Of a stretch of DNA of 64,000 bases, positions 6,530-44,424 are shown in pieces (positions within the stretch are counted from its first letter, which is position 1; each line of letters opens with the position of its first letter). Both the position numbers and the translations under genes were made by a program. Below the pieces are notes generated by a model, which ran no database searches, had not been told where the DNA came from, and worked only from the letters and a program-made list of their open reading frames with translations. This stretch comes from Lachnospiraceae bacterium (GTDB lineage: Bacteria; Bacillota; Clostridia; Lachnospirales; Lachnospiraceae). Location of the stretch: the NCBI GenBank assembly GCA_022652545.1, contig JALCRM010000008.1, positions 62,001 to 126,000 of the forward strand, written 5' to 3'.

Positions 6530-7167
6530 CAGCCGATCACCTGGCAGTCAGAGAGCACGCCGGGCATATTGTTCAGCGTATCCGCGGCTGTGATGGCGCG
6601 GATCACTTTGCAGGGAACGCCGGCAGCAAACGAATCGGCCGGGATGTCTCTCGTCACCACGCTGCCTGCTCCGATCACGGCGTTATCGCCGACAGTGACG
6701 CCGGGACAGACCACCACGTTTGCGCCGAACCAGCAGTTGCTGCCTATTTTGACGGGTTTTGCGTAGCACATGTGCGCTTCGGTCCCGTCTTCACGCAGCA
6801 CACGGCGCCGTTCATCCGGCAGCATCGGATGCACCGGCGTCACGATGGTCAGGTTGGGACCGAAATTGTTGTCGTCCCCGATGGTGACTTCGCCGTCATC
6901 CTGGATCGTCGTGTTATAGTTGAAAAAACACCGGGCACCGATCTTTGTATGCAGTCCGTAGTGAAAAAATACGGGCCCCTGCAGGAAGCTTCCTTCGCCG
7001 AGCGAACCCAGGATCTGTTTCAGGATCGCCATGCGTTCTTCAGCCTCGTCTTCGCGCAGCGCATTGAATTTCTGGCTGAGGTTGTGGCTGCGCAGCTTCA
7101 TGGCTTTCAGCCCGGCGTCGCCGGGGGCATAGAGCACCCCGGCGAAGATCCTCTCTTCTTCTGTCAT
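6529..7167 (-). CDS. Sugar O-acetyltransferase, left-handed beta-helix (Maa/LacA type)
   Basis: Acetyl-CoA dependent acetyltransferase of the maltose/galactoside O-acetyltransferase family, about 212 residues. The N-terminal mac domain (TEEERIFAGVLYAPGD) is followed by hexapeptide repeats; the catalytic His lies in VTPVHPM and the glycine-rich coil runs through IGSNCWFGANVVVCPGVTVG. Start: the ATG at 7167 (or the one at 7170) overlaps the stop of the upstream alpha subunit (ATGATGA), so it is translationally coupled to the deglycosidase pair. It could acetylate the released sugar or a surplus glycoside for detoxification; the substrate is not visible. Confidence 0.85.
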   Translation of the reverse strand: MTEEERIFAGVLYAPGDAGLKAMKLRSHNLSQKFNALREDEAEERMAILKQILGSLGEGSFLQGPVFFHYGLHTKIGARCFFNYNTTIQDDGEVTIGDDNNFGPNLTIVTPVHPMLPDERRRVLREDGTEAHMCYAKPVKIGSNCWFGANVVVCPGVTVGDNAVIGAGSVVTRDIPADSFAAGVPCKVIRAITAADTLNNMPGVLSDCQVIG

Positions 7168-8177
7168 CATTCGCCCCACAGCTTTTCCAGCATGCGGATG
7201 TGCCTGGCCACCTGCTCCTTTTCGGAGATGGACTCGTCGAAGCGGCCGCCTTCATACTCGGATGCGATATAGCCGCTGTAGCCTTCTTCCTTCATGATCT
7301 TTACGAAGCGCGGGTAGTCTATCCCCTTGCACTCCAGATTTTCATTGCAGTAGTAGAATTTTCCGTGCATGTATTTTGAATATTTGAGAAGACGGCGGAA
7401 GCCCTCGTAATCCGGGCTGGTGCGGTAGTAGATCGTTCCCATCTTGGCGGTCTTCGGAATGGAGAAGATGCGCTGTCTGCAGACATAGACGTCGACCTCG
7501 TCGCCGCCCTTCTGCAAAATCTTTTCCTCCAGTTCCTTTTCAGGAATTTCGGTGTTCGTATAGAGATCGTTGATCTCCAGCAGCAGGTCCTTGTGGCAGC
7601 AGCCGTCGGGGATGCAGTTGAGGCAGATCTCGGGCGCACCGGATGCAAACGCGGAGAAATCGGGCACGATACCGAGTGCGTCGGTATGGAGACGTTCAAA
7701 CAGTTCATAGTACTCCCGGAAGACCGGAGTGGAAGGAGACCAGGGACCGTGCAGCTCTATGGCCAGATGCAGGCCGAGTTCCTCGACGAACGGGAGCAGC
7801 TTTTCCATGGTCGAAGGAAGCAGCGCATCCTGGCTGCGTACATACCTGAAGCCCATCCGTTTTGCGACTTCCATCTCGTTGATGGTCTCCGCAAAACGTT
7901 CGTCCTCGTTGAGGAAGCGTCCCTTGTGTTTCCCCGAGTCGATGTATATGGAGTAGCAGACCGGATCCAGACCGTAGGCCGCAAGGCGTCCGCGGAACCA
8001 GTCTATCCATTCGTCCGACGGATTGGGGTGTCCGGGGACCATCTGCGGGGCCACGATCTCGATGCCGTCGCCGCCCATTTCCTTCGCCGTGCGCAGGACA
8101 TCTTCGAAGGAGCATTTCCCCTGCACGTATTTCATGCCGAATCCATAAAGTGTGATGCTGTGTTTTATATTTCCCAT
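7167..8177 (-). CDS. C-glycoside deglycosidase alpha subunit-like TIM barrel (type 1)
   Basis: Sugar phosphate isomerase/epimerase-like (xylose isomerase-like) TIM barrel, 336 residues. I chose ATG 8177, which has GGAGG 11 bases upstream; an upstream ATG at 8219 lacks one. The family metal ligands are visible in order: Glu in AIELHGP, Asp in IVPDFSAF, His in MHGKFYY and Glu in ASEYEGGRF. In characterised C-glycoside deglycosidases such a subunit binds a divalent metal and cleaves the C-C bond of a 3-oxo-glycoside together with a small beta subunit. Here the beta gene lies 44 bases upstream, and the acetyltransferase follows with overlap. Barrel start LYGFGMKYVQGKCSFED places it with the genes at 15711 and 40483. 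Confidence 0.78.
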   Translation of the reverse strand: MGNIKHSITLYGFGMKYVQGKCSFEDVLRTAKEMGGDGIEIVAPQMVPGHPNPSDEWIDWFRGRLAAYGLDPVCYSIYIDSGKHKGRFLNEDERFAETINEMEVAKRMGFRYVRSQDALLPSTMEKLLPFVEELGLHLAIELHGPWSPSTPVFREYYELFERLHTDALGIVPDFSAFASGAPEICLNCIPDGCCHKDLLLEINDLYTNTEIPEKELEEKILQKGGDEVDVYVCRQRIFSIPKTAKMGTIYYRTSPDYEGFRRLLKYSKYMHGKFYYCNENLECKGIDYPRFVKIMKEEGYSGYIASEYEGGRFDESISEKEQVARHIRMLEKLWGE

Positions 8178-8221
8178 GTTTTTCCAGACCTCCGTAAAGA
8201 GAATCGCAGACTTTCTCATGC

Positions 8222-8713
8222 TCAGATCGTGTAGACGCAGGAATCTTCGATGACCATCGGCGTCAGGAATTCAGACGCTTTCTCGTACCCCTGCGTACCT
8301 TCTCCGTAGGAGTGGCCGAAATCCGCGCGCTTCAGAATGCGGATGCGGAATTCATGGTCGCCTGCCGGAAGTCCTCCGACCCTGTATACCCGCAGAATGC
8401 CGGGATCCATGCAGCCCCAGAAATTCTCCGTGTGCGTCACCATGTCTGCGACGGAATAGCCGATGCCGTTGCAGAAAAACATCATGTGCGACTTCGGCAC
8501 CTCTGCGCCGTCCACGGTCAGCGTGATGTCCTCGATGGTGGAGATCCAGATGCCGCGGTAGCTGAGATTGTCGATCTGAAACTCGTATCCGGTGCAGCAG
8601 TCCCCGATCGTGCGGTTCCTGCAGGTGCCGGGTTTCAGGGGTTTCGTCATCAGCATGGATTCGCGGCAGCTTTCCTTTGCGGTTTTCATTCTTTCTTCCA
8701 GATCAGCTTTCAT
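8222..8713 (-). CDS. C-glycoside deglycosidase beta subunit-like (DUF6379 type)
   Basis: Small beta-rich protein of 163 residues, first gene of the minus-strand operon. Start 8713 is preceded by GGAGGT; in-frame ATGs further upstream run into the divergent regulatory region. It carries the two marks shared by all seven small proteins here: an S/Y-Y-R-G motif (LSYRGIW) about 75 residues in, and a GGL-x-x-G turn (VGGLPAGDHEF) about 55-60 residues later. The N-terminus has about 40 extra residues compared with the others, with several Cys (GTCRNRTIGDCCTG). In known CGDs the beta subunit packs against the TIM barrel and completes the active site. Partner: the alpha gene just downstream. Confidence 0.72.
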   Translation of the reverse strand: MKADLEERMKTAKESCRESMLMTKPLKPGTCRNRTIGDCCTGYEFQIDNLSYRGIWISTIEDITLTVDGAEVPKSHMMFFCNGIGYSVADMVTHTENFWGCMDPGILRVYRVGGLPAGDHEFRIRILKRADFGHSYGEGTQGYEKASEFLTPMVIEDSCVYTI

Positions 8714-8975: not shown

Positions 8976-10145
8976 ATGGGACGGACAGAAATGGCGCCGG
9001 TGAGGTTTGCGGTGATCGGAACGAGCCGCATTACGGAAAGGATGCTGGGAGAATCGGTGTTTTGCCCCGGTTTCGAACTGGCAGGGGTATATTCGAGGTC
9101 GCGGGAAAAAGGGGCGGCCTTCGCCGGCAGATACAGCCGGAACGGGACGTGCAGAGTATACGGCAGCCTGCAGGAACTGGCGGACGACCCCGGGATCGAC
9201 GCGGTTTACGTGGCGAGCCCGAATGCCTGCCACGCCGGACAGGCCGTGCGTATGCTGGAAAGCGGGAAAAACGTGCTCTGCGAAAAGACGCTGGCTTCGA
9301 ACAGCCGCGAGGCGGAGACGATGTTCCGGGCAGCGGACGCGCACGGCGTCCTGCTGACGGAGGGTATGCGCTCCATTCACACGCCGGGATTCCGGGCGGT
9401 CGAAGAGAACCTTGTAAAGCTCGGGACCATACGGAAGGCGAGGTTTTCCTACTGTAAATATTCTTCCCGCTACGATGCCTTCAGACAGGGCATTCCGCAG
9501 AACATCTTCCGTACGTCATGTTCGGCCGGTGCGCTGACGGATCTGGGCATCTATTGCATCGAGCCCATGGTGGCGCTCTGGGGGAAGCCGGCGAGGATCC
9601 TTTCTTCGTCCGTGATGCTGCCCGGAATGGACGGGGAAGACGGTGCGGACGGTGCGGGCACCATCCTGGCGGAGTACCCGGGCATGACCGTCGAGCTGGA
9701 CTATTCGAAGATCTCCGACGGGTACCTGCCTTCCGAGATCGAAGGCGAGGAAGGCACGATGCTGATCCCGGCGATCGACGACGTGCGGGAGATCACGATC
9801 CGCAGGCGCAGCACAGGCACAGCGGCCCCCGCGGGCGCGGATAAGGAGCAGGAGACCCTCCGTTTCCAGGAAGGCGAGGCGGACAATCTGCGCTACGAGA
9901 TTGCGGACTTTATTTCCGCGGTGCGTGCCTCCGCTGCACGGAAGGGGCAGAAAGCCGGCGTTGACAGATACCGGCCGGTCACGCTGGAGGCGATCCGGAT
10001 CGCCGATGAAGTGCGCAGGCAGTGCGGCATCGTATTTCCGGCGGACCGCGACCGGGAGCAGGACAGCACGGGACATACGCAGACCCCGGCGGGACAGACC
10101 GCGCCGGAGGCGGAACAAGGAGCATGCACGAATGAAAAACATTGA
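8976..10145 (+). CDS. Gfo/Idh/MocA family oxidoreductase
   Basis: NAD(P)-dependent sugar or glycoside dehydrogenase, 389 residues, start 8976 after GGAGGTCGAC. The N-terminal Rossmann fold begins FAVIGTSRITERM; the catalytic Lys is in CEKTLAS (EKT where most relatives have EKP). The C-terminal domain carries DLGIYCIEP, with Tyr at the position of the frequent catalytic His, as in the dihydrodiol-dehydrogenase-like branch. The last ~35 residues are a low-complexity Gln/Thr/Glu tail. In gut C-glycoside pathways a dehydrogenase of this family oxidises C3 of the sugar; this one is the least canonical of the three here. Its end overlaps the next gene by 14 bases. Confidence 0.85.
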   Translation: MGRTEMAPVRFAVIGTSRITERMLGESVFCPGFELAGVYSRSREKGAAFAGRYSRNGTCRVYGSLQELADDPGIDAVYVASPNACHAGQAVRMLESGKNVLCEKTLASNSREAETMFRAADAHGVLLTEGMRSIHTPGFRAVEENLVKLGTIRKARFSYCKYSSRYDAFRQGIPQNIFRTSCSAGALTDLGIYCIEPMVALWGKPARILSSSVMLPGMDGEDGADGAGTILAEYPGMTVELDYSKISDGYLPSEIEGEEGTMLIPAIDDVREITIRRRSTGTAAPAGADKEQETLRFQEGEADNLRYEIADFISAVRASAARKGQKAGVDRYRPVTLEAIRIADEVRRQCGIVFPADRDREQDSTGHTQTPAGQTAPEAEQGACTNEKH

Positions 10146-10698: not shown

Positions 10699-10721
10699 AA
10701 CACACAGAAAGCGAGGCAGAC

Positions 10722-12970: not shown

Positions 12971-14236
12971 ATGAAAGAGATCCGTGTAGGTATTATCGGC
13001 GGCGGTATGATTTCCCACCGGCATATGGTCGTTTATGAGGAAATCAGGAAACACGCGGCAGAGTTCGGCTTTACGGCCAAAGTAGTGGCCATGGCTGAGA
13101 TCGACGAGGCGAAGCGCAAAGCCTGGGGAGAAAAATACGGCTTCGAAGACAAGGATCTGTATGCTGATTTCAGAGAAATGCTCAAGCGCGACGATCTTGA
13201 TACCATCGATGTCTGCGTACACAACAACCTGCACGCATCGGTCAGCATCGCCGCAATGAAGGCAGGCTACGATGTCTACTGCGAGAAGCCGGAAGCTTCC
13301 ACGTATGCAGACGCAAAGATGATGATCGACTGCGCAAAGAAGCTCGGCCGCAAGTATCATGTGCAGATCAGCTCCCTGATGAACAACCAGACCAGGATGG
13401 CGAGAAAGATGATCGCCGACGGAGAACTCGGACACCTTTACTATTCCAACCTGACCATGGTTTCCCGCCGCCGCCGTCCCGGCTACGACCTTCCGATGTT
13501 CACGACCGACTTCTACACGAAGGAAGTCGCAGGACACGGCCCGCTGATCGACCTCGGCGTCTATCTGATCAGCCAGCTGCTTTTCGTCATGGGCATGCCG
13601 AAGCTGAAGAGCGTATCCGGTTTTGCGACCACCGGCCTGGAGATCGATCCTGCACTTGTCAGCGATCCGAAGGGCTTCGGTGTGGAAGACCTGGGCTGCG
13701 CACTTGCCAAGTTTGAAGACGGCCTTTCTCTTCAGATCCTCGGCACTTCTGCAGCAAATATCGACGATCATATGAAGACCTACATCCTCGGTTCCAAGGG
13801 CGGCCTGGAGATCAAGCAGGCAGACACCACCGGCGGTCCCTTCGCGGCATCCCTGCTGGGCGGCGCTGCGGCACTGGCAATGGGCGATCCTTCGCTTACC
13901 TTCTACGGAGACCTCGGCGCGAAGAAGAACATCACGGCGGATCTGGACTGCTGGGAGCAGGGCAAGATCGATGTCATCAAGAACCCGAAGCTGGCGCTGT
14001 ACGATGACAACCAGGTAATGTGGCTCGCATACAAGCTTGGCATTCTGGACGACACCACCCGCTACAACACGCCTGAGATCGCTATGAACATGCTGAAAGT
14101 AACCGACGGCCTGTTCCTCTCCAGCCAGCTCGGCCGTGAAGTCACCGCCGAAGAGATCGAAGCAATGTCCAAGTCCATGGCCATCACCGAACAGGAGACA
14201 CCGTTCGGCACCATCCACTATGACCTCAGCTTCTGA
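12971..14236 (+). CDS. Gfo/Idh/MocA family oxidoreductase
   Basis: NAD(P)-dependent dehydrogenase of 421 residues, longer than the usual ~350. Start 12971 follows AAGGAGGTTACGGCA. The nucleotide fold opens RVGIIGGGMISHRHM; the catalytic Lys is in YCEKPEAS. The substrate domain has GHGPLIDLGVYLISQ, with Tyr where the gene at 37266 has His. The next genes are a sugar isomerase/epimerase and a beta-alpha deglycosidase pair, the same set found with DgpA-type 3-oxidoreductases in gut C-glycoside degraders, so oxidation of a glycoside or of the released sugar at C3 is a reasonable role. Codons are biased to G/C and the gene appears strongly adapted. Confidence 0.87.
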   Translation: MKEIRVGIIGGGMISHRHMVVYEEIRKHAAEFGFTAKVVAMAEIDEAKRKAWGEKYGFEDKDLYADFREMLKRDDLDTIDVCVHNNLHASVSIAAMKAGYDVYCEKPEASTYADAKMMIDCAKKLGRKYHVQISSLMNNQTRMARKMIADGELGHLYYSNLTMVSRRRRPGYDLPMFTTDFYTKEVAGHGPLIDLGVYLISQLLFVMGMPKLKSVSGFATTGLEIDPALVSDPKGFGVEDLGCALAKFEDGLSLQILGTSAANIDDHMKTYILGSKGGLEIKQADTTGGPFAASLLGGAAALAMGDPSLTFYGDLGAKKNITADLDCWEQGKIDVIKNPKLALYDDNQVMWLAYKLGILDDTTRYNTPEIAMNMLKVTDGLFLSSQLGREVTAEEIEAMSKSMAITEQETPFGTIHYDLSF

Positions 14237-14271
14237 TCGGAAAACAAATGTCAGCAAAGGAGACTGCGACT

Positions 14272-15117
14272 ATGAAAGACTTAAAGATCGGTATTCAGGT
14301 ATATGGCCTGAGATTCCTGCTTGAAGATACGCCGGACCAGTTTGAAAACGTGATGCGCCGCATCAAGGCAATGGGCTATGACGGAGTGGAGCTCGCGGGG
14401 CTTTACGGGCTGAAGCCCGAATACATCCGCGACACGCTGAAGGAGATCGGTCTGGTCCCGATCAGCGCGCACGTTCCGCTGGCGGATATGATCGCGGATC
14501 TGGACAAGGTCGTGAATGACTATGCCACGATCGGGGTCCGGTACATGGCGATTCCATATCTGCCGGAAGAGAACCGCTATCCGGAAAAGGGCTACCAGGA
14601 GTTCATCGGCGAGGCGAAGAAGATCTCGGCGGCACTGAAGGCAAAGGACATCACGCTGCTGTATCACAACCACAATTTCGAATTCGAGAAAGTGGCGGAC
14701 GGAACCTTTGAACTCGACGATATCTACAGACAGCTCACTCCTGACGAACTGCAGACCGAACTGGATCTGTGCTGGGTCAAGGTGGCAGGCCAGGATCCCG
14801 CGGCGTATGTCCGCAAGTATTCCGACCGCTGCCCGGTCGTTCACTACAAGGACTTCATCAAGGAAGGCAATCCGAAGAACCTGTACAAGCTGATCGGCAT
14901 TGAGACCAAGGAAGAAGAGCACGACACCGGCGTATTCGAGTTCAGGCCTGTGGGCTTCGGACAGCAGATCTGGGATCCGATCCTCAAGGCAACGGAAGAA
15001 TCATGCGCGGGCTGGGTCATTGCCGAGCAGGACGAGCATTACAGTGAGCCGGTCATGGAATGCGCAAAACGTGCTGTTTCCTATATCAGACTCCTTATGG
15101 AAAAGACGACAGACTGA
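14272..15117 (+). CDS. Sugar phosphate isomerase/epimerase family protein
   Basis: Xylose-isomerase-like TIM barrel, 281 residues, shorter than and distinct from the seven alpha-like barrels. Start 14272 is preceded by AAAGGAG; an upstream in-frame ATG at 14248 has no ribosome site. Metal-ligand motifs: YHNHNFEFE, ELDLCWVK, VVHYKDF and IAEQDEHY. This branch includes inosose-dehydratase-like and 3-keto-sugar enzymes. In C-glycoside gene clusters a protein of this sort accompanies the deglycosidase and may process the released 3-oxo-sugar; that is inference. It lies 35 bases after the dehydrogenase and is followed by an intrinsic terminator before the beta gene. Confidence 0.85.
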   Translation: MKDLKIGIQVYGLRFLLEDTPDQFENVMRRIKAMGYDGVELAGLYGLKPEYIRDTLKEIGLVPISAHVPLADMIADLDKVVNDYATIGVRYMAIPYLPEENRYPEKGYQEFIGEAKKISAALKAKDITLLYHNHNFEFEKVADGTFELDDIYRQLTPDELQTELDLCWVKVAGQDPAAYVRKYSDRCPVVHYKDFIKEGNPKNLYKLIGIETKEEEHDTGVFEFRPVGFGQQIWDPILKATEESCAGWVIAEQDEHYSEPVMECAKRAVSYIRLLMEKTTD

Positions 15118-15193: not shown

Positions 15194-15634
15194 ATGGCAT
15201 TTATGATGCGTATCAATTTCGTGGATGTGATCTGCGATGATTCGCTGGTCAGCACCTACGCGGACGGCAAAAAAAACGGTTACAGCTTTGCCATAAGACT
15301 GAGTTATTACCGCGGACATTTCCTTTCGGACATCGACCGCTTCGAGGTCTATACCGACGGGGAGAAAGTGGCGGACAGGGATATCCAGTTCGGCCTGAAC
15401 GGCAAGCAGTTTACAGTGGGACAGCTCGGACAGTGCGTCAGCGAATTCTGGACGCTGCTGGAACCTGCCCATATTTTCGTGATCCGCCCCGGCGGACTGC
15501 CGGTCGGCGAGCACGACATCAAAGTAGTGCTGTATCTGCGCTGCCCGTATCTTCCGCTGCCCGGTTCCGCAGAGGGTGAGCATAAGTACCAGCCCATCGA
15601 CGGCTGCGGCGAAAAGAAACTGACGATCGCCTGA
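15194..15634 (+). CDS. C-glycoside deglycosidase beta subunit-like (DUF6379 type)
   Basis: Small beta-rich protein, 146 residues, start 15194 with ATGGAGGTATACC upstream. It has YYRG at residues 38-41 (LSYYRGHF), a DG turn (YTDGEKV) and the PGGLPVGEHDI motif near residue 102, followed by two hydrophobic strands. These positions match the other six small proteins. Partner should be the alpha gene at 15711, 76 bases downstream; the spacer holds a tandem duplication that includes this gene's stop codon. Known CGD beta subunits have no activity alone and pair with the metal-binding barrel. Confidence 0.73.
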   Translation: MAFMMRINFVDVICDDSLVSTYADGKKNGYSFAIRLSYYRGHFLSDIDRFEVYTDGEKVADRDIQFGLNGKQFTVGQLGQCVSEFWTLLEPAHIFVIRPGGLPVGEHDIKVVLYLRCPYLPLPGSAEGEHKYQPIDGCGEKKLTIA

Positions 15635-15710: not shown

Positions 15711-16691
15711 ATGATGAGCAGAATAAAACTCGGAGCTACACTGTATTGCTATACATCTGAATATGCCACAGGTAAGTTCACTTTTGAGGACTGCGTGCGC
15801 ACCGCTGCGGAAGCAGGGGCGGAAGGCTATGAGATCGTCGCCACGCAGATGATCCCGTCCTACCCGTTCGTGAGCGATGAATTCCTGGGCCTTGTAAATG
15901 ACTGCAAGGCAAAATACGGCATAGCACCGGCCAGCTACGGCGCCAATAACGACCGTGGCATGCTGCCGGACAGGGATCTGACGGAAGAAGAAATGCTGCA
16001 GCGCGCGATCATTGACATACAGAGTGCCCACAAGCTGGGCTGCCATCTGCTGCGCGCTCAGTATCTGCTCTCCCCCGCAGCCCTGGAGAAACTGGCTCCC
16101 TATGCGGAAATGTACGATGTGAAATGCGGGATCGAGATCCACAATCCCGAGTATCCCACTTCGCCGGTCATGAAAGAGTACCTGGCTGCGATCAAACGTT
16201 CCGGATCGAAGTATATCGGCTTCGTGCCCGACTTCGGATGTTTTGCCACAAAGCCCAACAAGCCCCAGTGGGACCAGGCTCTGGCTGCAGGCGCGAGGGA
16301 AGAGATGCTGGAGCTTGCGAAACAGATGCGTACCGACAGCGTGCCGCTGCAGGAAGCACAGCAGAGGATGCTGGAAAAAGGCGCAAACGATGCCGAAATG
16401 ATGGCGTTTTCAGGTATGTACGGTTTTGTGCAGTTCTCTACGCACCCGGACCTGGAGGGCCTGAAGGAGATCCTGCCTTATTCCATCTACTGCCACGGGA
16501 AGTTCCACTATCTGTACGAAAACAACCGGGAGGCTTCGATCCCCTATGAGGAGATCCTTCCGATCCTGAAGGACGGCGGTTTTGACAGCTTCATCATGTC
16601 CGAGTTCGAAGGGCACGGCTATGCGGATGCTGTCCTGATGACGAAACGGCACCAGAAGATGATGCGTGAGCTCCTGCATCAGGAAGCATGA
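15711..16691 (+). CDS. C-glycoside deglycosidase alpha subunit-like TIM barrel (type 1)
   Basis: Xylose-isomerase-like barrel, 326 residues; start 15711 or the adjacent ATG at 15714, after CGGAGGA. Metal ligands: Glu in GIEIHNPE, Asp in FVPDFGCF, His in CHGKFHY, Glu in MSEFEGHG. The opening LYCYTSEYATGKFTFEDCVR groups it with the genes at 7167 and 40483 and separates it from the four type 2 barrels. With the preceding beta protein it should form a metal-dependent C-C lyase acting on a 3-oxo-C-glycoside. Its TGA overlaps the ATG of the MATE transporter gene. Confidence 0.78.
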   Translation: MMSRIKLGATLYCYTSEYATGKFTFEDCVRTAAEAGAEGYEIVATQMIPSYPFVSDEFLGLVNDCKAKYGIAPASYGANNDRGMLPDRDLTEEEMLQRAIIDIQSAHKLGCHLLRAQYLLSPAALEKLAPYAEMYDVKCGIEIHNPEYPTSPVMKEYLAAIKRSGSKYIGFVPDFGCFATKPNKPQWDQALAAGAREEMLELAKQMRTDSVPLQEAQQRMLEKGANDAEMMAFSGMYGFVQFSTHPDLEGLKEILPYSIYCHGKFHYLYENNREASIPYEEILPILKDGGFDSFIMSEFEGHGYADAVLMTKRHQKMMRELLHQEA

Positions 16692-18127: not shown

Positions 18128-18166
18128 TATGATGTTCATAACGGTTCGGAAATGCGGAGGTACTGC

Positions 18167-21494: not shown

Positions 21495-21586
21495 CTATGA
21501 TGGAAACAGTGAAGGCCGAATGCAGAGCACCGCACCGGATAACGGGAATATTCGGAACGGATATACGGAACAGGAGGAAAGGGCAC

Positions 21587-22622: not shown

Positions 22623-23015
22623 ATGTTTGACAATAACGTATTTATCGAAGGGACCTGCCGGAACGTGGAAGAGGGCGGGAAGATCATCGGCTACGAGATG
22701 CAGACGCATATCACCTATTACCGCGCGATCCCCCTTTCCATGATCAATTTCATCGCAGTGGAAACGGACGGGGAAAAGGTGCCGGCGGAGGATATCCGTT
22801 TTACGCCGGACCGCATAGACTGGTTCACACTGGCGGAAATGACCACCGTGACCGGGATCAAATGGGAATATGACCAGGCGGCAACCGTACGCGTGCTGAA
22901 GGAAGGCGGTCTGTCTTCCGGCACGCACACCGTGCACCTGACAGTCTGCACGCGCACCGCGTACATACCTGTGCCGCTCGAGGGCAACATGACAAGGACC
23001 GTGGAGATCCGCTGA
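22623..23015 (+). CDS. C-glycoside deglycosidase beta subunit-like (DUF6379 type)
   Basis: Small beta-rich protein of 130 residues, start 22623 after GAGGAGGCGCG, 16 bases after the alpha gene. It contains TYYRAIP near residue 32, where the others have YYRG, so the Gly is Ala here, and the EGGLSSGTHTV motif near residue 98. N-terminal phrase FIEGTCRNVEEGGK matches the RNVxxxG pattern of the type 2 beta proteins. It is followed by a second beta gene, so its partner could be the alpha gene upstream (21587), and the second beta gene that of 23490. Confidence 0.7.
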   Translation: MFDNNVFIEGTCRNVEEGGKIIGYEMQTHITYYRAIPLSMINFIAVETDGEKVPAEDIRFTPDRIDWFTLAEMTTVTGIKWEYDQAATVRVLKEGGLSSGTHTVHLTVCTRTAYIPVPLEGNMTRTVEIR

Positions 23016-34692: not shown

Positions 34693-34773
34693 GAAACAGA
34701 TGAGGAGTTCCGCCAAAGCCTGCATGAGGCTGGAGCGGTGAGATTCGCAGAGGCCGACAGCTGACGCGTAGAG

Positions 34774-34807
34774 TGACGGCACATCGGCGAAGATGTGCCG
34801 TCATTTA
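34774..34807 (+). terminator. Hairpin between binding protein and permeases (attenuator-like)
   Basis: TGACGGCACATC (34774-34785) and GATGTGCCGTCA (34792-34803) form a perfect 12-base stem with a six-base loop, followed by TTTAT. The weak T-run suggests partial termination or 3'-end protection, which would let the binding protein be made in excess over the permeases. Confidence 0.65.
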
Positions 34808-34822
34808 TAAGAGGAGGTATCA

Positions 34823-36169
34823 ATGAAGAAGGAAAAGTTCCACCTTCCGGGGAACGGGCAGCGGCTGTACGATGTCATGTTCCTGGCTCTGCTGGGCATC
34901 CTGTCAGCCTTTCTTCCTTTCGCGCACTACACCTACAGAAAGGTATACTACACGATCTCCGGGTTCAGCTTCATCGCGGGCCGGAGCATCATGAAAGGCA
35001 AAACAGTCATCGCCCCCAACACCGACCTGCTGCTCATGATCGTTGTTTTTGCGGCAGCTCTGGTCATTGCGGCTCTTTACCCGCTCTTTAAAAGCCGGAA
35101 GAGCGGCTGGCTGCTCGTGGCACCGGGAATGGCGGCGCTCGTGACCGTTGTCGTTTTCCAGATGTCCTATTCAGGTCTTATGGGCAAGGCCAAGAAGACA
35201 GGCCTGGGTGCGGGCCCCATCGTCGCGGCGGTCCTGGCCGTGCTGATCATGGCACGCGGCCTGCAGCTCCTGCAGACGAACAAAGTACTTCTGACGCTGG
35301 ACTTTATGATCCTGCCCGGCCTCATCTACATGATCATCAACAACTACATGCCCATGCCCGGCATTGCGCTGGCATTCAAGAAGATCGACTTTTCGGTCGG
35401 CATTCTTGACAGCAAGTGGGTGGGCTTCACGAACTTCAAGTACCTGTTTTCCACTTCGGATGCCTGGATCATTACGCGGAACACCCTGGCATACAATCTG
35501 ACCTTTATCATCCTCGGCAACATCCTCGGCCTGGTCGTGGGCATAGCGCTGGCGGAACTCATCAGCAAGCGCCTGCAGAAATTCTACCAGACCTCCATCC
35601 TGCTGCCGCAGCTGATCTCCATGATCATCGTCGCCTACATCGTGTACGGCTTCCTCAGCAGCGAGACGGGCTTCATCAACAAGGCTATCCTGGGAGATAA
35701 GAATGCGATCTCCTTTTACTCCACGACGAAATACTGGCCGTTCATCCTGACCTTCGTCAGTATCTGGAAAAACATAGGCTACAACGGCGTCATCTATCTC
35801 AGCTCCGTGGTCGGCATCGACCGCTCTCTGTATGAAGCTTCCTGCGTGGACGGCGCGAGCCGCTGGAAACAGATCAGCAGCATTACGCTGCCGCTCCTCA
35901 AACCGACGGTGATCACGCTCACGATCCTGCAGATCGGACGTATCTTCTATTCGGACTTCGGCCTGTTTTATCAGGTGCCCATGGATTCCGGCGCACTGTA
36001 TACAGTCACAAACACGATCGACACCTACGTGTACCGCAGCCTGATGAAACTGAACAACATTTCGATGGCTGCAGCGGCGTCCGCGTTCCAGTCCGTTGTC
36101 GGATTTATCGTTGTCGTAGCAACCAATGCGCTGATCCGCAAGGTCGACAAAGACAACGCACTGTTCTAA
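34823..36169 (+). CDS. Sugar ABC transporter permease, LplB-like, with extra N-terminal membrane domain
   Basis: Permease of the CUT1 class, 448 residues, start 34823 after GAGGAGGTATCA. The core (from about residue 155) has the family opening LPGLIYMIINNYMPMPG, an ASCVDGASRWKQISSITLPLL EAA-type loop and six hydrophobic segments. Before it come about 150 residues with three or four additional hydrophobic segments, which ordinary LplB proteins (about 300 residues) lack. The extension begins KKEKFHLPGNGQRLYD and shows no catalytic motif. Function with the lipoprotein and the next permease is import of a carbohydrate. Confidence 0.85.
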   Translation: MKKEKFHLPGNGQRLYDVMFLALLGILSAFLPFAHYTYRKVYYTISGFSFIAGRSIMKGKTVIAPNTDLLLMIVVFAAALVIAALYPLFKSRKSGWLLVAPGMAALVTVVVFQMSYSGLMGKAKKTGLGAGPIVAAVLAVLIMARGLQLLQTNKVLLTLDFMILPGLIYMIINNYMPMPGIALAFKKIDFSVGILDSKWVGFTNFKYLFSTSDAWIITRNTLAYNLTFIILGNILGLVVGIALAELISKRLQKFYQTSILLPQLISMIIVAYIVYGFLSSETGFINKAILGDKNAISFYSTTKYWPFILTFVSIWKNIGYNGVIYLSSVVGIDRSLYEASCVDGASRWKQISSITLPLLKPTVITLTILQIGRIFYSDFGLFYQVPMDSGALYTVTNTIDTYVYRSLMKLNNISMAAAASAFQSVVGFIVVVATNALIRKVDKDNALF

Positions 36170-36184
36170 AGGAGGAGGCCCAAT

Positions 36185-37087
36185 ATGGAAACAGCAGTAC
36201 ATGGCAGACAGGAAAGAATCTTTCAGCTGGTGATCAACCTGATCCTGATCTTCTTTGCCTTCTGCGCGATCGTACCGTTCATCATGCTGGTGTCCAGCTC
36301 CTTTACGGAGGAGTCGACACTGATGACCAGCGGCTACAATTTCTGGCCCAAGAAGTTTTCGGCGTTTTCCTACACCTGGATGTTCGCGACCAACGGCGCA
36401 AGGATATTCCGTGCATACGGCGTCACGTTCTTCATCACCATATTCGGCACCGTCTGCTCCCTGCTGGTCGGCCCGATGCTGGCCTGGCCGCTTTCCCGCG
36501 GCGACTATCCGCGTGCGAAGTTCTTCACCTTCATTGTGTTTTTCACGATGATCTTCAACGGCGGCGTGGTGCCTTCCTACATCATGTGGACACAGATCTT
36601 CCACATCAAGAACACGATCTGGTCCCTGATTTTCCCGAACCTGCTGTTTAACGGCTTCTACATCATCCTGATGAAAAACAACTTCAAATCCAACATCCAT
36701 CCGGCCCTGATCGAAGCGGCGAAGCTGGACGGCGCAGGAGAGTGGTACATCTACTTCAAGATCGTCATGCCGCTTTCGCTTCCCATCCTTGCCACGATCG
36801 GCCTGATGGTTGGCCTGGGCTACTGGAACGACTGGACGAACGGCCTGTACTACATTACGGATACCAACCTGTACAGCCTGCAGATCTACCTGAAGTCCAT
36901 CATGGACAACATCAATTCGCTTTCGTCCATGTCGAGTTCGATCAGCGGTGTCAGCGCGGCCAACATGCCGGGCACCTCGATCCGTATGGCCATTGCGGTC
37001 ATCGGCGTCATTCCGGTCATGGCCCTGTATCCGTTCTTCCAGAAATCCTTCGTGGCCGGCATTGCACTGGGCGGTGTCAAGGAGTAA
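36185..37087 (+). CDS. Sugar ABC transporter permease, LplC/YtcP-like
   Basis: Second CUT1 permease, 300 residues of normal length, start 36185 after AAAGGAGGAGG and 15 bases behind the first. Six hydrophobic segments; the cytoplasmic loop reads IEAAKLDGAGEWYIYFKIVMPLS, the EAA motif. The end VAGIALGGVKE is typical. With the upstream genes it makes a three-gene importer lacking an ATPase. The dehydrogenase follows after 178 bases without visible terminator, so the importer and the catabolic genes may share transcripts. Confidence 0.9.
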   Translation: METAVHGRQERIFQLVINLILIFFAFCAIVPFIMLVSSSFTEESTLMTSGYNFWPKKFSAFSYTWMFATNGARIFRAYGVTFFITIFGTVCSLLVGPMLAWPLSRGDYPRAKFFTFIVFFTMIFNGGVVPSYIMWTQIFHIKNTIWSLIFPNLLFNGFYIILMKNNFKSNIHPALIEAAKLDGAGEWYIYFKIVMPLSLPILATIGLMVGLGYWNDWTNGLYYITDTNLYSLQIYLKSIMDNINSLSSMSSSISGVSAANMPGTSIRMAIAVIGVIPVMALYPFFQKSFVAGIALGGVKE

Positions 37088-37265: not shown

Positions 37266-38333
37266 ATGGCAGATATCAGAATGGGCATCATCGGGTTTGG
37301 TTTCATGGGACACGAGCATGCCAATATGCTGAAGGAACAGGGAATCGAAGGGATCACGCTGACGGCGGTCTGCGACACGAACCCCGCACAGCTGAAGGAC
37401 GCACCCGCGGGTGTGAAAACATATCCCGACATGGACACGCTGCTGGCAGATCCGGAGATCACGACGGTCATCATCGCAATCCCGAACCGTTTCCACGCGG
37501 AGGCTGTCCGCAAGGCCTGCGAACACGGCAAGGACATCATCTGCGAGAAACCCTGCGCGATGTCGGTTCCCGAGTTCGACGAGATGATGAAGGAAGTGAA
37601 GGCGGCGGGCGTGCGTTTCACCGTACACCAGCAGCGCCGTTTCGACCCGGATTTCCGCACCATGAAGAACGTCTATGACGGCGGCATGGTGGGCAAGGTC
37701 TACACCGTACAGAGCATGCTGTACGGCATCAACGGCAATATGCACGACTGGCATGTGTTCGTCAGCGAAGGCGGCGGTATGCTTTACGACTGGGGCGTGC
37801 ATCTTCTGGACCAGCTGCTGTACATGATCAAGTCGCCCGTCAAAACCGTTTATGCGGACGTGCGCAATGTCATCAACAAAGAGGTCGACGACTATTTCAA
37901 GATCGAACTTTATTTTGAAAACGGCGTCGTTGCCGAAGTGGAACTGGGCACGTATTTCCTGGAGGACCGCCCGAAGTGGTTCGAACGCCACTGGATCGTA
38001 GGCGGCGACAGCGGTACGGCTTATTCGGACGGCTTCGATCCGGAAGGAAAGATCGCGCATACGACCAGGCTCCTTACCAATGTGCCGGGCAAGATCACGA
38101 TGTCTGCTTCGGGCCCTACCCGTTCCTTCGGGCCGCCGGCACCGGGCGTCCTCACGACCGAGGACCTGCCCAAGGCGGATACGAAGCACCGCATGTATTT
38201 TGAGAACTACGTGCGCGCGACGGACGGTCTCGAAGAGTTCCTTGTAAAGCCGGAAGAAGTACGCCGCGTGCTTTGTCTGATGGACGCGGTACGCGAGTCC
38301 GGAAGGACACACAGGACCGTGGATTTCGAGTGA
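37266..38333 (+). CDS. Gfo/Idh/MocA family oxidoreductase (DgpA-like candidate)
   Basis: NAD(P)-dependent dehydrogenase, 355 residues, start 37266 after AAAAGGAGGACAGAATCACT. Nucleotide fold GIIGFGFMGHEHA, catalytic Lys in CEKPCAM, and a complete DWGVHLLDQ in the substrate domain with both Asp and His, unlike the other two dehydrogenases here. Among the three it is the best candidate for the C3-oxidation of the glycoside that must precede C-C cleavage, because three beta-alpha pairs follow within 6 kb and the importer precedes. Cofactor and substrate are not visible. A terminator follows its stop. Confidence 0.87.
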   Translation: MADIRMGIIGFGFMGHEHANMLKEQGIEGITLTAVCDTNPAQLKDAPAGVKTYPDMDTLLADPEITTVIIAIPNRFHAEAVRKACEHGKDIICEKPCAMSVPEFDEMMKEVKAAGVRFTVHQQRRFDPDFRTMKNVYDGGMVGKVYTVQSMLYGINGNMHDWHVFVSEGGGMLYDWGVHLLDQLLYMIKSPVKTVYADVRNVINKEVDDYFKIELYFENGVVAEVELGTYFLEDRPKWFERHWIVGGDSGTAYSDGFDPEGKIAHTTRLLTNVPGKITMSASGPTRSFGPPAPGVLTTEDLPKADTKHRMYFENYVRATDGLEEFLVKPEEVRRVLCLMDAVRESGRTHRTVDFE

Positions 38334-38504: not shown

Positions 38505-38966
38505 ATGTTTGATCAGTACATGGTCAGGAAGGATTCGCTGGAAAACGTGACGGAAGGCGGCAGGACGACGGGGTTCCGCATGGGCGTCCGGATCGCCGAT
38601 TACCGCGGGTGCTTCCTGCCCCTGCATAACGGGTACTACCTGGAAGTGGACGGTGTGTTTTATCCGCGGGAGCAGCAGAAGTTCGCGATCAACGGAAAAG
38701 CGCCCCGCAGTTTTGCGGAGATCTCGAAGGCAGTCTGGGAACACTGGGATTTCGACGCGGAAGGTATGCTTTACGTCGAGAAGGAAGGCGGCCTCGCGCC
38801 GGGGGAGCACGTCGTGCGTATACAGCAGTCCGTGCTGGCCAGCTACGGCTACATGCCGATGCAGGAGGAGTGGGTGAAGAACCCTCCCGTACCGGGCGGC
38901 GGTGCCGGTTCCGGCAAGACGCACGTGGTCTGCGAATATCATCTCATGCTGAAGGAGGAAAACTGA
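38505..38966 (+). CDS. C-glycoside deglycosidase beta subunit-like (DUF6379 type)
   Basis: Small beta-rich protein, 153 residues, start 38505 after ACGGAGGTGGAAAG. It has LENVTEGGRTTGF near residue 12, DYRGCF near 33 and the EGGLAPGEHVV motif near 97. The segment after the last motif is longer than in the others and contains a Gly-rich turn (PGGGAGSG). One base separates its stop from the alpha ATG, so the two are tightly coupled and almost certainly a functional pair. Confidence 0.74.
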   Translation: MFDQYMVRKDSLENVTEGGRTTGFRMGVRIADYRGCFLPLHNGYYLEVDGVFYPREQQKFAINGKAPRSFAEISKAVWEHWDFDAEGMLYVEKEGGLAPGEHVVRIQQSVLASYGYMPMQEEWVKNPPVPGGGAGSGKTHVVCEYHLMLKEEN

Positions 38967-40039: not shown

Positions 40040-40486
40040 ATGGCACAGTTTCAGTCTTATAACAAACTGCTGATCTCCGCGGAGGAAGGCATTGAGAACT
40101 ACGGCCTGAACGGAAAGATACTGGGCTGGCAGTTCAGATGCCAGTATCCGTCCTACCGCGGTACATATCTGAGCTGCATCCACAGCATGGAAGTGTACCT
40201 GGACGGGGAGAGAGTCCCCGACGGCGATATCCTGTTTTACCTGAACGGGAAGGAATTTCTGCTCTCGGAGTTTCCCGACCTGTACAAGGAATACTGGTTC
40301 ATCCTGGACAAGGCCGTGGTGCGCGTACAGAAGGACGGCGGCCTGCCGGCAGGCAGTTCTCACCGTCTGCTCGTGAAGATGAAGCACCTGATCCCCTATA
40401 CCGGATATTTCGGAAATTATCTGGTGCTGGACGGCTCGAACGAGAAGATGCTGACTGTGGCGGAGAAGGAGGAGGCTGTACTATGA
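40040..40486 (+). CDS. C-glycoside deglycosidase beta subunit-like (DUF6379 type)
   Basis: Small beta-rich protein, 148 residues, start 40040 after GAGAGGAGGCTACGC. It contains PSYRGTY near residue 37, a DG turn (YLDGERV) and DGGLPAGSSHRL near 100. In sequence between motifs it is nearer to the small protein at 15194 than to the type 2 set (for example the YLDG/YTDG turn and the longer C-terminus). Its TGA overlaps the ATG of the alpha gene (ATGA), so production is coupled. Confidence 0.73.
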   Translation: MAQFQSYNKLLISAEEGIENYGLNGKILGWQFRCQYPSYRGTYLSCIHSMEVYLDGERVPDGDILFYLNGKEFLLSEFPDLYKEYWFILDKAVVRVQKDGGLPAGSSHRLLVKMKHLIPYTGYFGNYLVLDGSNEKMLTVAEKEEAVL

Positions 40487-41451: not shown

Positions 41452-41452
41452 G

Positions 41453-42901
41453 ATGAACAGGCAGACGCCGTTCTTCGTACATGACAGGCGCTTCTACGCG
41501 CGTTTTTTTACCCTGCTGGGAGCGCTTGCCGTACAGAACCTGCTCGACTACGGCGTCAATCTGGCTGACAACATCATGCTGGGCAGCTACAGCCAGACGG
41601 CGCTGTCCGGTGCGGCGGCGGTGAACCAGATCCAGTTCTTCGTGCAGGCGGTGGCGATCGGCATAGCCGAGAGCCTCGCGACAGTGGGCGCGCAGTACTG
41701 GGGGCAGAAACGCACGAAGCCCGTCGTCATCACGACCGGCGCGGCGCTCGTCACGGCCTGGATCTTTGCGGCGGTGCTGTTAACCGCTGTTTCGTTGTTT
41801 CCCGTCAGGGTCCTCGGCCTTTTCACGAACGATGCCGCCATCATAGCCGCAGGGACGGAATATCTTTCGGTGATCCGCTTCACCTATCCGATCTTTATGA
41901 CGACGACCGTCCTGCTGGCGATGCTTCGCTGCGTGGAAACAGTGAAGATCGCCATGCTGCTGTCCGGGCTTTCGCTCGTAATCAACGTTTGTATGAATTA
42001 CACGCTCATTTTCGGGCACTTCGGCGCACCGGAACTGGGAATCACAGGCGCCGCGGCCGGTACGGTCGTGTCGCGGGCGGCAGCACTCTGCGTGCTGCTC
42101 TTTTATATCTCGCGGAAGGACCGGAAACTGCACGCGAATCTGCGCGACATGTTCCGCAGCGACAGGAACGGTGCATACAGGCGGGCGTACGCAAAAGCAG
42201 CAGTCCCGCTTATCGTCACCCAGGGACTGTGGGGTATTTCGAACCCGATCCAGATGGCTGTGGTCGGACATCTGAGCGCAGACGCCATCGCGGCGTACAG
42301 CGCTTCCACGACCCTGTACTCGACGCTGAAGGTGCTGGCGACTTCCGCGGCCGCAGCTGCCGGCGTGCTGATCGGCACCGCGGTGGGAAGTCCGTTGCCC
42401 GTGGAAAGTCAGGCTCCCGCTGCGCCGGGAAAGCCGGTGCAGGACCGGGGCGAAGCGAAGATGCGGCTCATCCGCAGCTGTTCGAGGACCCTGCAGGTCC
42501 TGTTTCTCGGCATCGGGCTCAGTATCTTTGTGCTGCTGCAGCTCCTGCGCGGACCGGTACTGTCCCTGTACCGTCTGACGCCGCAGGCTATGGGACTCTC
42601 CTACAGCTTTATGGGCATCCTGAGCGTGATCGGGATCGGCATGGCGTACCAGATGCCGACGATCGGAGGCATCATCCGCGGCGGGGGAGATACGAAGTTC
42701 GTGCTGGTCAACGACCTGGTCAGCATCTGGGGGATCGTGATCCCGCTGTCGCTGCTCGCGGCTTTCGTGTGGAAACTGCCGGTGACCGCGGTCGTGATCC
42801 TGCTCAACAGCGACCAGATCTTCAAGTGCGGCGCGGCCTTCGTGAAATGCAACAGGTACCGCTGGATACGTAAACTGACAGTGGATGAACAGCCCGGCTG
42901 A
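41453..42901 (+). CDS. MATE family efflux transporter
   Basis: Second MATE transporter, 482 residues with about twelve hydrophobic segments. The ATG at 41453 is one base after the alpha stop. The sequence starts with a cytoplasmic NRQTPFFVHDRRFYARF and the first segment NLLDYGVNLADNIMLG; the second half begins near VPLIVTQGLWGISNP. A hydrophilic insertion (PVESQAPAAPGKPVQDRG) lies between segments eight and nine. Likely expels the aglycone or another toxic phenolic. It resembles the first MATE gene in class but is not a recent duplicate. Confidence 0.88.
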   Translation: MNRQTPFFVHDRRFYARFFTLLGALAVQNLLDYGVNLADNIMLGSYSQTALSGAAAVNQIQFFVQAVAIGIAESLATVGAQYWGQKRTKPVVITTGAALVTAWIFAAVLLTAVSLFPVRVLGLFTNDAAIIAAGTEYLSVIRFTYPIFMTTTVLLAMLRCVETVKIAMLLSGLSLVINVCMNYTLIFGHFGAPELGITGAAAGTVVSRAAALCVLLFYISRKDRKLHANLRDMFRSDRNGAYRRAYAKAAVPLIVTQGLWGISNPIQMAVVGHLSADAIAAYSASTTLYSTLKVLATSAAAAAGVLIGTAVGSPLPVESQAPAAPGKPVQDRGEAKMRLIRSCSRTLQVLFLGIGLSIFVLLQLLRGPVLSLYRLTPQAMGLSYSFMGILSVIGIGMAYQMPTIGGIIRGGGDTKFVLVNDLVSIWGIVIPLSLLAAFVWKLPVTAVVILLNSDQIFKCGAAFVKCNRYRWIRKLTVDEQPG

Positions 42902-42924
42902 AACGGGCGGAAAGAGGAGAAGAG

Positions 42925-43320
42925 ATGGCAGGAAGACAGATCTACGACCCGGAAGGGTTCAGAAACGTGGAGAAGGACGGGAAGACAGAAGGCTTTTCGT
43001 TCCGCTTCAAGCTGCAGTATTACCGCGGGATCACGCTGTCTATCATCCGCGATATCAAAGTCACGGTGGACGGCAAAACATACCCGAGGGAAGACGTGCG
43101 CCTTTCGGTGAACGGCGAGACCTTTACGCTGGAAGAGACACGCACTGTGATCAGCCCGCTGTACCGCTGGGAATTCGGGGATTTCGCGACGGTCACTGTT
43201 TTGACGGAAGGCGGTCTGTCCGCAGGAAAGCACCATATCAGCACGGTGCAGGTGGTGGCGCCGTCCTATATGCCGTTCCAGCTGGAACCGGTATGCGAGG
43301 CGGACTTTGAGATCAACTGA
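42925..43320 (+). CDS. C-glycoside deglycosidase beta subunit-like (DUF6379 type)
   Basis: Small beta-rich protein, 131 residues, start 42925 after AGAGGAGAAGAG, 23 bases behind the MATE gene. It has FRNVEKDGKTEGF near residue 13, QYYRGIT near 33 and TEGGLSAGKHHI near 95, the same order as in the proteins at 22623 and 23034, to which it is closest by eye. Probable partner is the type 2 alpha protein at 43363, 42 bases downstream. Confidence 0.73.
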   Translation: MAGRQIYDPEGFRNVEKDGKTEGFSFRFKLQYYRGITLSIIRDIKVTVDGKTYPREDVRLSVNGETFTLEETRTVISPLYRWEFGDFATVTVLTEGGLSAGKHHISTVQVVAPSYMPFQLEPVCEADFEIN

Positions 43321-43362
43321 ACGGTGCGGATGTTTTGAAACGGACCGACACGGAGGAATGAA

Positions 43363-44424
43363 ATGAGTGCACAGATAAAGAGAAGTGTGTCCCTGTACAG
43401 CTATCAGGACGAATACTACAGCGGAAAGCTGGACCTCGAGGGGTGCCTCGCGGAGACCGCGAAGGCCGGCGCGACCGGTGTGGAGCTGCTCGCAGAGGAG
43501 ATGATCAGACAGTTCCCGAACCCGATCCTGACGGAAGAATTCCAGGAGCAGTGGAAGGGATGGATGGCAAAATACGGACTCACACCCACCTGCTACGACG
43601 CTTTCCTGGAGAACAGGATCTTTGACAACCGCACGCTGAGCCTCGGCGAGCAGGTGGAAATGATGGAACGCGACCTGAAACTGGCCTCGCTCCTGGGCTT
43701 TCAGTCGCTGCGCACGCTGGTCTCGACGCCGATGGACGTCATCGAGGGCAGCCTTGCGTACGCGGAGAAGGTCGGCGTGAAGATCGGCCTCGAGGTGCAT
43801 GCACCGTTCTCGCTGAATTCGACATGGGCCGACGGCTACATGGAACTGATCCGCAGAAGCGGGAGCCGGTATTTCGGCTTCATCCCCGACATGGGGATCT
43901 TCTGCCGCCGTGTGCCGGATGTCGTCACCGACAAGTGGAGAAGGATGGGCGCGCGGGAAGACTGCATCGCCGTGGTGGACGACGCATACTGCGGGCGCGT
44001 AGAAAAGGGTTTTGTGAAGATCAGATACGATCTGAACCTCGGAAAAGCCAACATGGAATACCGCAATGCCAACGGACTTGCGGTACTGACCGAGCAGCTG
44101 CAGAAGATGAACGCCGGCCCTGCCGACTTCGGCTACCTGAACAGCAGCTACACGTATTCATGGAGCGATCCGCAGGATATAATTGACAATATAGACCACA
44201 TTGTCCACTGCCATGCAAAATGCTACAACACGACGGCGGATTACAGGGAAACGGCCGTGGCCATCCCGGAAGTCGTTGCGGCGTACAGAAAGGCGGGCTA
44301 CGACGGCTACCTTTCCACCGAGTACGAAGGCGGCGAATCCCTGCGCGACGCGCTGCCCGTGGACGGGATCGAACAGGTCAGGCGCCATCAGGAAGCTCTG
44401 CGCCGCGCCATAGAAGTGCAGTGA
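43363..44424 (+). CDS. C-glycoside deglycosidase alpha subunit-like TIM barrel (type 2)
   Basis: Xylose-isomerase-like barrel, 353 residues, start 43363 after CGGAGGAATGAA. Opening RSVSLYSYQDEYY; ligands Glu in GLEVHAPF, Asp in FIPDMGIF and Glu in STEYEGGE. The third-ligand region is VHCHAKCYNT, so the usual HGKF is HAKC: His and Lys are kept, Gly and Phe are not. Together with the 21587 protein it shows that His-x-Lys is the conserved core. Last deglycosidase gene of this block; the AraC-GH39 regulator follows after 39 bases. Confidence 0.76.
   Translation: MSAQIKRSVSLYSYQDEYYSGKLDLEGCLAETAKAGATGVELLAEEMIRQFPNPILTEEFQEQWKGWMAKYGLTPTCYDAFLENRIFDNRTLSLGEQVEMMERDLKLASLLGFQSLRTLVSTPMDVIEGSLAYAEKVGVKIGLEVHAPFSLNSTWADGYMELIRRSGSRYFGFIPDMGIFCRRVPDVVTDKWRRMGAREDCIAVVDDAYCGRVEKGFVKIRYDLNLGKANMEYRNANGLAVLTEQLQKMNAGPADFGYLNSSYTYSWSDPQDIIDNIDHIVHCHAKCYNTTADYRETAVAIPEVVAAYRKAGYDGYLSTEYEGGESLRDALPVDGIEQVRRHQEALRRAIEVQ

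Follow-up and report, generated by a model that had tools for sequence, protein, structure and literature searches.

A 64,000-nucleotide stretch of a Lachnospiraceae genome (the window; bases 62001-126000 of the 126.8-kb contig C8 in a draft assembly of 2.67 Mb, 81% complete) carries most of a locus that, judged from sequence comparison, is quite likely a C-glycoside degradation island. It would hold eight pairs of alpha/beta C-glycoside deglycosidases (CGDs), nine genome-wide, each probably with a different substrate. Grasses commonly contain C-glycosyl flavones. With a very stable carbon-carbon link between sugar and plant pigment, C-glycosides withstand ordinary glycosidases, and to our knowledge few C-glycoside-cleaving enzymes have been characterized. 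The pairs are called P1 to P7 in their order within the window, P0 for the one that precedes it, and PC1 for the one on contig C1, away from the island.

An earlier note on this stretch had proposed seven barrels with a full ligand set beside seven small proteins, which it took to be DUF6379. In a hidden Markov model search, all seven small proteins matched PF19906 (CGDB, C-glycoside deglycosidase beta; E 4e-24 to 1e-38, all above the curated cut-off), which confirms this assignment, and some CGD beta chains in the PDB are still labelled DUF6379. All seven partner barrels matched PF01261. The CGDB profile detected nine genes in the genome: besides the seven window genes, there is one at C8:59463 and another on contig C1. 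The proposed seven pairs are thus all present, but the genome set is larger, with P0 (C8:59436-60871) lying 1.1 kb ahead of the window. Eight of these genes are packed into 45.8 kb of contig C8. A control search of 14 well-known genomes with the CGDB profile gave no match, and NCBIfam had no name for the seven alphas or for the three of the seven betas that were submitted. The PDB matches of the P7 alpha comprised eight sequences, all CGD-type, with the type of 8qvc, 8qrz, and 9m3a taken from entry names and CGDB partner chains. At the sequence level, the identity of these genes as CGD pairs is well supported. The pairs of the window are as follows.

7167-8219, minus strand: P1 CGD alpha-like barrel; PF01261, full metal and catalytic set, C. 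scindens clade, start at 8219 or 8177
8222-8713, minus strand: P1 CGD beta; PF19906, E 4e-24, precise start uncertain
15194-15634, plus strand: P2 CGD beta; PF19906
15711-16691, plus strand: P2 CGD alpha, PuCGD/DgpC type; 9m3a E 2e-138 (62% identity), PuCGD 7bvr E 1e-112 (50%)
21497-22606, plus strand: P3 CGD alpha, DgpC1 type; 50% to 9m3b, C. scindens clade
22623-23015, plus strand: P3 CGD beta; PF19906
23034-23435, plus strand: P4 CGD beta; PF19906
23490-24482, plus strand: P4 CGD alpha; PF01261, catalytic residues present
38505-38966, plus strand: P5 CGD beta; PF19906
38968-40026, plus strand: P5 CGD alpha; 8qvc E 9e-50, catalytic residues present
40040-40486, plus strand: P6 CGD beta; PF19906
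40483-41451, plus strand: P6 CGD alpha; PF01261, ATG at 40483 behind AGGAGG
42925-43320, plus strand: P7 CGD beta; PF19906 E 1e-38, matches CGD betas in the PDB
43363-44424, plus strand: P7 CGD alpha; 8qvc E 4e-71, relatives 62-83% identical in 80 loci

The gene order is beta-alpha in P0, P1, P2, P4, P5, P6, and P7 and alpha-beta in P3 and PC1, so that P3 and P4 are arranged alpha-beta-beta-alpha. Measured by domain edges, each beta lies within 80 nucleotides of its alpha. Pairs were defined by one-to-one assignment, which agreed with the gene order in the run beta5-alpha5-beta6-alpha6; the beta at 15194, 77 nucleotides behind the barrel at 14248-15117, was assigned to the P2 alpha at 15711. 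The coordinates given previously were correct apart from one start, as the barrel listed at 40138 begins at 40483.

In characterized CGDs, the metal is held by Glu147, Asp179, His269, Lys271, and Glu305, as concluded from structure and mutation, and His149 and Glu307 participate in catalysis (AgCGD2 numbering; PMC8563793). All nine alphas of our genome retain these seven residues in the alignment, in agreement with the ligand set proposed for the seven window barrels. In a wider alignment of 142 alpha open reading frames (own and fetched loci; 141 alignable, one gapped), six of the residues were conserved in 141/141 and Glu307 in 140/141, and conservation was the same when the nine own alphas and the 34 alphas of a congener (G412) were taken alone. 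On the beta side, Tyr39 is required for cleavage of 3-keto-C-glucosides, whereas cleavage of 3-keto-phlorizin drops only 2.4-fold without it (PMC10628242). This residue, the Tyr of the YRG motif as mapped by residue count on the beta chain of 7bvr, was retained in 137 of 137 alignable betas (138 rows, one gapped), including all nine of our own. Both the YRG and the GGLxxG motif had been noted before for the seven window betas; GGLxxG is indeed present in all, but YRG in only six, as the beta at 22623 reads YRA, with Tyr and Arg invariant. The residue counts overstate independence, because the 80 named loci behind them were all fetched as P7 relatives.

Alpha and beta subunits would form complexes, a prediction that gains support from relatives in which both subunits are naturally fused into one beta-alpha chain. 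Such predicted single-chain proteins were found among relatives of P0 (62% identity), P7 (70%), P4 (45%), and P2 (54-56%), the fusion loci being L116:7932-9467, L109:9431-11038, L136:6427-7848, L176:6341-7828, and L188:412-1863. Natural single-chain CGDs could be used in assays without co-expression.

The sugar is oxidized before cleavage by characterized CGDs, and three dehydrogenases had been listed for the locus. DgpA is the closest solved relative of two of them (37266-38333 and 12971-14236), the former matching 9m37 ("P581a DgpA2 and isoorientin complex structure"). The assignment of the third, 8976-10145, as DgpA is unsupported, since other oxidoreductases are closer. A fourth Gfo/Idh/MocA protein sits before the window. 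These genes and a neighboring barrel are listed here.

8976-10145, plus strand: Gfo/Idh/MocA oxidoreductase, DgpA not the nearest relative; PF01408, best PDB match 4iq0 E 7e-29, DgpA E 7e-10
12971-14236, plus strand: DgpA-like C3-oxidoreductase; best PDB match 7xr9 DgpA E 1e-30
14248-15117, plus strand: AtOGE-like O-glycoside beta-eliminase candidate; best PDB match 8bvk E 2e-20
37266-38333, plus strand: DgpA2-like C3-oxidoreductase; PDB 9m37 E 1e-138

With the two DgpA-like window proteins as queries, no third DgpA-like place was found in the genome at E<=1e-10, and therefore few oxidases would serve the nine cleaving enzymes. A DgpA2-like oxidase lay within 6 kb of the P7 relative in 31 of 80 loci, of which only 39 had the 6-kb flank on both sides. 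The barrel at 14248-15117 was also considered as a further CGD alpha and rejected, as His-x-His replaces Glu-x-His and AtOGE is the best solved relative. AtOGE His132, His134, His189, and an Asp (counted as 163), which include metal and base residues, are aligned and retained in an alignment that spans residues 11-239 of 289; in NCBIfam, the protein matched only IolE, scoring 49.6 bits where the cut-off is 290.

This gene bears on the question of whether the pairs chiefly catalyze beta-elimination of 3-oxo-O-glycosides such as plant glucosides and disaccharides, while just one or two of them can also cleave C-glycosides as a minor activity. The AtOGE-like gene adjoins a DgpA-like gene, hydrolases for O-linked sugars are nearby, and PuCGE cleaves 3-keto-phlorizin (PMC10628242). 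We nevertheless consider this explanation improbable: Tyr39, nearly dispensable for O-cleavage and essential for C-cleavage (PMC10628242), is invariant in the alignable betas, where it might also be retained for other reasons; a separate O-glycoside eliminase would leave eight more of them redundant; and the DgpA2-like oxidase matches the isoorientin complex.

The pairs differ strongly from each other. Among the nine own alphas, identities were 22-50% with a median of 28%. In a comparison with six solved alphas, three of them incomplete and AgCGD2 left out, the P2 alpha was closest to 9m3a (62%; 50% to PuCGD), and the P3 and PC1 alphas reached 50% and 51% with 9m3b (P581a DgpC1). The closest solved alpha was 8qvc for P4 (39%), P7 (37%), and P5 (36%), 9m3a for P0 (36%), and PuCGD for P1 and P6 (34% each). 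In a tree of 64 rows, computed with a quick method, the own alphas formed eight clades, P3 and PC1 being the sole two that group together, and each of the eight clades included members from other genomes. Relatives of P1-P7 are present in Catenibacillus scindens, for which C-glycoside degradation is proven. The DfgA clade contains none of the nine own alphas and includes two congener alphas (L151 and L154). Tandem duplication from a single local origin was rejected, as the approximately unbiased test excluded a single clade holding all eight alphas of the island (p-AU 4e-9, 33 rows). Alpha and beta distances correlated (r 0.80, 105 pairs, 0/999 permutations), also in a thinned set (r 0.74, 46 pairs, 0/999) and in G412 (r 0.83, 32 pairs, 0/999), and PuCGD and EuCGD subunits are known not to be interchangeable (PMC8563793). 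The island is probably a set of separate old enzymes gathered by transfer as alpha-beta units.

This divergence fits specialization, as proposed in the earlier note, whose view of a C-glycoside island is also supported by the CGD-like pairs and the DgpA2-like oxidase in the locus. That the pairs could instead be redundant copies with the same substrate range, kept by dosage or drift, would agree with the description of CGDs as substrate-broad (PMC8563793). We regard this as very improbable, given that the highest identity among the nine alphas is 50%, that they occupy separate clades with a single origin rejected, that the catalytic residues are intact in all nine, and that PuCGD and EuCGD differ sharply, with C8 versus C6 specificity (PMC8563793). 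A target range of non-flavonoid C-glycosides (xanthones, anthrones, bacterial aryl-C-glucosides), alone or additionally, is somewhat more conceivable, yet still unlikely in our view. The P0, P1, P4, P5, P6, and P7 alphas each share less than 40% identity with every solved alpha in the comparison of six and so have few links to flavonoids, and Catenibacillus decagia cleaves the xanthone mangiferin (PMC11170127). On the other hand, the best-matched oxidase as well as P2 and P3 point to enzymes of flavonoid degraders.

The locus further contains AraC proteins with a C-terminal glycoside hydrolase family 39 (GH39) domain, four of them in the window.

18961-21384, plus strand: AraC regulator with altered GH39 domain; PF12833 and PF01229, no Glu in the acid/base column, ATG at 18961 chosen as start
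27644-30196, minus strand: AraC-GH39 fusion regulator; PF12833 and PF01229
30255-32663, minus strand: AraC-GH39 fusion regulator; PF12833 and PF01229
44464-46878, plus strand: AraC-GH39 fusion regulator; best PDB matches of the GH39 part are beta-xylosidases

A fifth stands beside PC1 (L012:4698-7169). Together they make up every GH39 hit in the genome, and none is more than 7 kb away from a CGDB gene, four of the five hits not being independent. In G412, five of six GH39 places (split rows merged) were within 4 kb of a CGDB gene; within 10 kb, the link was weaker elsewhere, with 1/2 in G433, 6/24 in C. scindens (G492), and 4/6 in G493, where hits of other genomes were only partly confirmed as AraC fusions. 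An AraC-GH39 fusion was found within 6 kb of the P7 relative in 34 of 80 loci, with the flank limitation given above for the oxidase. GH39 catalysis uses an acid/base Glu, in the NEP motif, and a nucleophile Glu. Aligned with two solved xylosidases, the five domains have Pro, Lys, a gap, Asp, and Asp in the acid/base column, thus Glu in none of them, a loss that depends on the alignment, as Glu residues flank the column in the 18961 protein and Asp is a mild change. The nucleophile Glu was retained in all five. With this pattern, the GH39 part is probably a ligand sensor. If these proteins are glycoside sensors, they would point to the inducing substrates. A literature search on AraC-GH39 fusions turned up nothing beyond xylosidase work.

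We surveyed genomes of the same family, order, and genus, in sets that overlap and each include our own genome. CGDB genes occurred in 35 of 397 genomes of the family (34 above the cut-off), 16 of 392 at order level, and 7 of 62 of the genus. The 40 genomes reached via P7 relatives (40 of the 80 loci), selected for having one, all carried CGDB genes, with 1 to 14 copies. Counts above our nine were found in G412 (33) and C. scindens DSM 106146 (G492; 14); a family-survey genome with 11 hits (G067) has the same coordinates as G492. G412 (96% complete, 2.6 Mb; loci L123-L146) has the largest CGD set that we met. Its betas pair one-to-one with an alpha in 32 of 33 cases, four as fusions, and the beta left over (L136:5893-6372) lies directly next to a fused gene; the beta in L135, beside a P1-like alpha, is split across two frames and may be broken or misread. 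The next-best density in the surveyed tables was four per 50 kb (G412 and G493), followed by three (G433, G461, G472, G481, and G494), and the 14 C. scindens genes are scattered, with at most two per 50 kb; fragmented drafts could hide clusters, as in G474, which has eight CGDB genes, one per contig.

The statement in the earlier note that gut systems described so far contain just one or a few pairs does not hold, as C. decagia carries DfgAB and 11 DgpA homologues in addition to six dgpBC sets (PMC11170127), and C. scindens has the 14 CGDB genes mentioned. Four DgpBC were counted in C. scindens in PMC11170127, a lower number that may be explained by the identity threshold of that paper (given as 33% in the legend of Table 2 and as 31% in Methods). 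Multi-pair CGD genomes as such are therefore already known, and C. decagia and C. scindens share with our genome the many pairs, which in C. scindens are scattered and here clustered. New here are the density (eight in 46 kb), the congener with 33 CGDB genes, and the linked AraC-GH39 regulators without the usual acid/base Glu. In the literature searched, mostly without subscription papers, we found neither a similar single island nor a 33-pair genome described.

Among individual systems, DgpABC of the human gut Dorea strain PUE (PuCGD; 7bvr, 7exz, 7xr9) has the same residues and subunits, with the 50% identity of the P2 alpha and DgpA-type oxidases in both. In strain PUE, dgpABC forms a compact operon directed at puerarin (PMC11170127), whereas the island has eight diverse pairs, two DgpA-like genes, the AtOGE-like gene, hydrolases, and fused regulators. 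The strain P581a proteins DgpC1/B1 (9m3b), the 9m3a pair, and DgpA2 (9m37/9m39) include the closest solved relatives of P2, P3, and PC1; we found no paper for these PDB entries. DfgAB(CDE) of Eubacterium cellulosolvens (EuCGD; 7bvs, 7exb) has the alpha/beta architecture and active-site residues in common with the island, and AtOGE (8bvk; PMC10628242) shares the His-x-His, Asp, His pattern with 14248-15117.

Further genes of the locus could support C-glycoside use.

4906-6471, plus strand: carboxylesterase, may take off acyl groups; PF00135
10722-12260, plus strand: GH35-like beta-galactosidase, accessory; PF01301 and DUF5597, NCBIfam GH35 468.8 bits, below the cut-off of 500
16688-18127, plus strand: MATE exporter; PF01554
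24533-25984, plus strand: apiosidase-like hydrolase; PF13204 E 3e-90
25971-27602, minus strand: GH43 hydrolase; PF04616 and GH43_C2
33052-37087, plus strand: ABC importer with binding protein and two permeases; SBP_bac_1 and DUF3502, permeases named by reading the sequences
41453-42901, plus strand: MATE exporter; PF01554
46892-49558, plus strand: putative glycoside hydrolase with rhamnosidase-like C-terminal part; AlphaRhamBT4145 E 1e-14 across 126 aa, 53 bits where the cut-off is 1300

Positions 50-4783 were judged, by eye only, to encode another importer, of peptide type. Between a MATE and an AraC-GH39 gene, 18152-18838 (plus strand) encodes a 228-aa protein, likely with a membrane anchor as judged by eye, that had no match in Pfam and NCBIfam searches. 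At the window end, 59120-64000 (plus strand) encodes a large, repeat-rich putative surface protein of more than 1,600 aa that runs past the end. No tRNA or known RNA family was found in the window. Before the island, L009:2211-4214 (C8:44211-46214) encodes an Old Yellow-type flavoenzyme nearest to BaiCD and bilirubin reductase, below the cut-offs of those models, followed downstream by a phosphate acetyl/butyryltransferase and a kinase (the latter by eye); the flavoenzyme might use aglycones as substrates.

In the pathway that we propose, with reaction steps taken from characterized CGDs (PMC8563793, PMC10628242), plant C-glycosides would be imported, and the two DgpA-type dehydrogenases would oxidize the C3-OH of the sugar. 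The CGDs would then cleave the 3-oxo-C-glycoside by metal-assisted beta-elimination, with the metal held in the alpha barrel by E147, D179, H269, K271, and E305, His149 as the base, and the beta subunit giving the Tyr needed for C-C cleavage and helping to bind the aglycone. Products would be the aglycone and 2-hydroxy-3-keto-glucal; the elimination product is hydrated and then reduced to glucose in PMC12101588. The pairs would probably differ in the aglycone, the sugar, or the position of attachment (6-C or 8-C) that each of them serves. Accessory proteins would take up the glycosides, esterases and hydrolases (apiosidase, GH43, GH35) would strip decorations, the MATE pumps would expel aglycones, and the AraC proteins with the altered GH39 domain would sense substrates.

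Several points weigh against this reading. PF01261 is a generic fold family, the residue counts are not independent, and the source genome is an incomplete draft. Nine pairs stand against only two DgpA-like oxidases found, and an AtOGE-like gene lies inside the same locus, while PuCGE also acts on 3-keto-O-glucosides (PMC10628242). Within the own nine pairs alone, alpha-beta agreement was weaker (r 0.43, 4/999), and a single-sequence structure prediction of the fusion P0001 (Anaerobium acetethylicum, a P0 relative) had a mean predicted local distance difference test score (pLDDT) of 38. C. scindens is able to cleave puerarin as well as flavone glucosides of the 6-C and 8-C types (PMC11170127). 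For C. decagia, activity is reported on vitexin, isovitexin, orientin, homoorientin, and mangiferin but on neither puerarin nor aloin (PMC11170127). As it fails on these despite six dgpBC sets, pair number does not equal breadth. A broad substrate range of the island is plausible.

Considering the eight separate clades, the C. scindens relatives, and the co-divergence of alphas and betas, the locus is most likely an island in which few C3-oxidases feed many specialized cleavers. More tentatively, and with somewhat less than even confidence, it might be a modular system resembling a polysaccharide utilization locus, in which shared C3-oxidases are combined with swappable, mutually incompatible eliminases, each laterally acquired, and AraC pseudo-glycosidases report which glycoside is present, an arrangement that would reach 33 enzymes in 2.6 Mb in the congener.

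The eight divergent, apparently intact enzymes, together with the 33 CGDB genes of the congener, offer a panel for studying how preferences for 6-C or 8-C attachment, aglycone, and sugar are set. Record titles assign most of the named P7 relatives to Lachnospiraceae and their genera and show Streptococcus and Treponema among those farther removed, and many come from ruminants or other animal guts, where we take RUG in the titles to mean rumen genome. Vitexin in rumen fluid was unchanged at 12 h and fell from 173 to 66 ug over 72 h (PMC8388715). As many named P7 relatives come from animal guts and vitexin disappears in rumen fluid, the locus hints that C-glycoside degradation is a real niche in herbivore guts, and it suggests that this uncultured bacterium specializes in eating plant C-glycosides.

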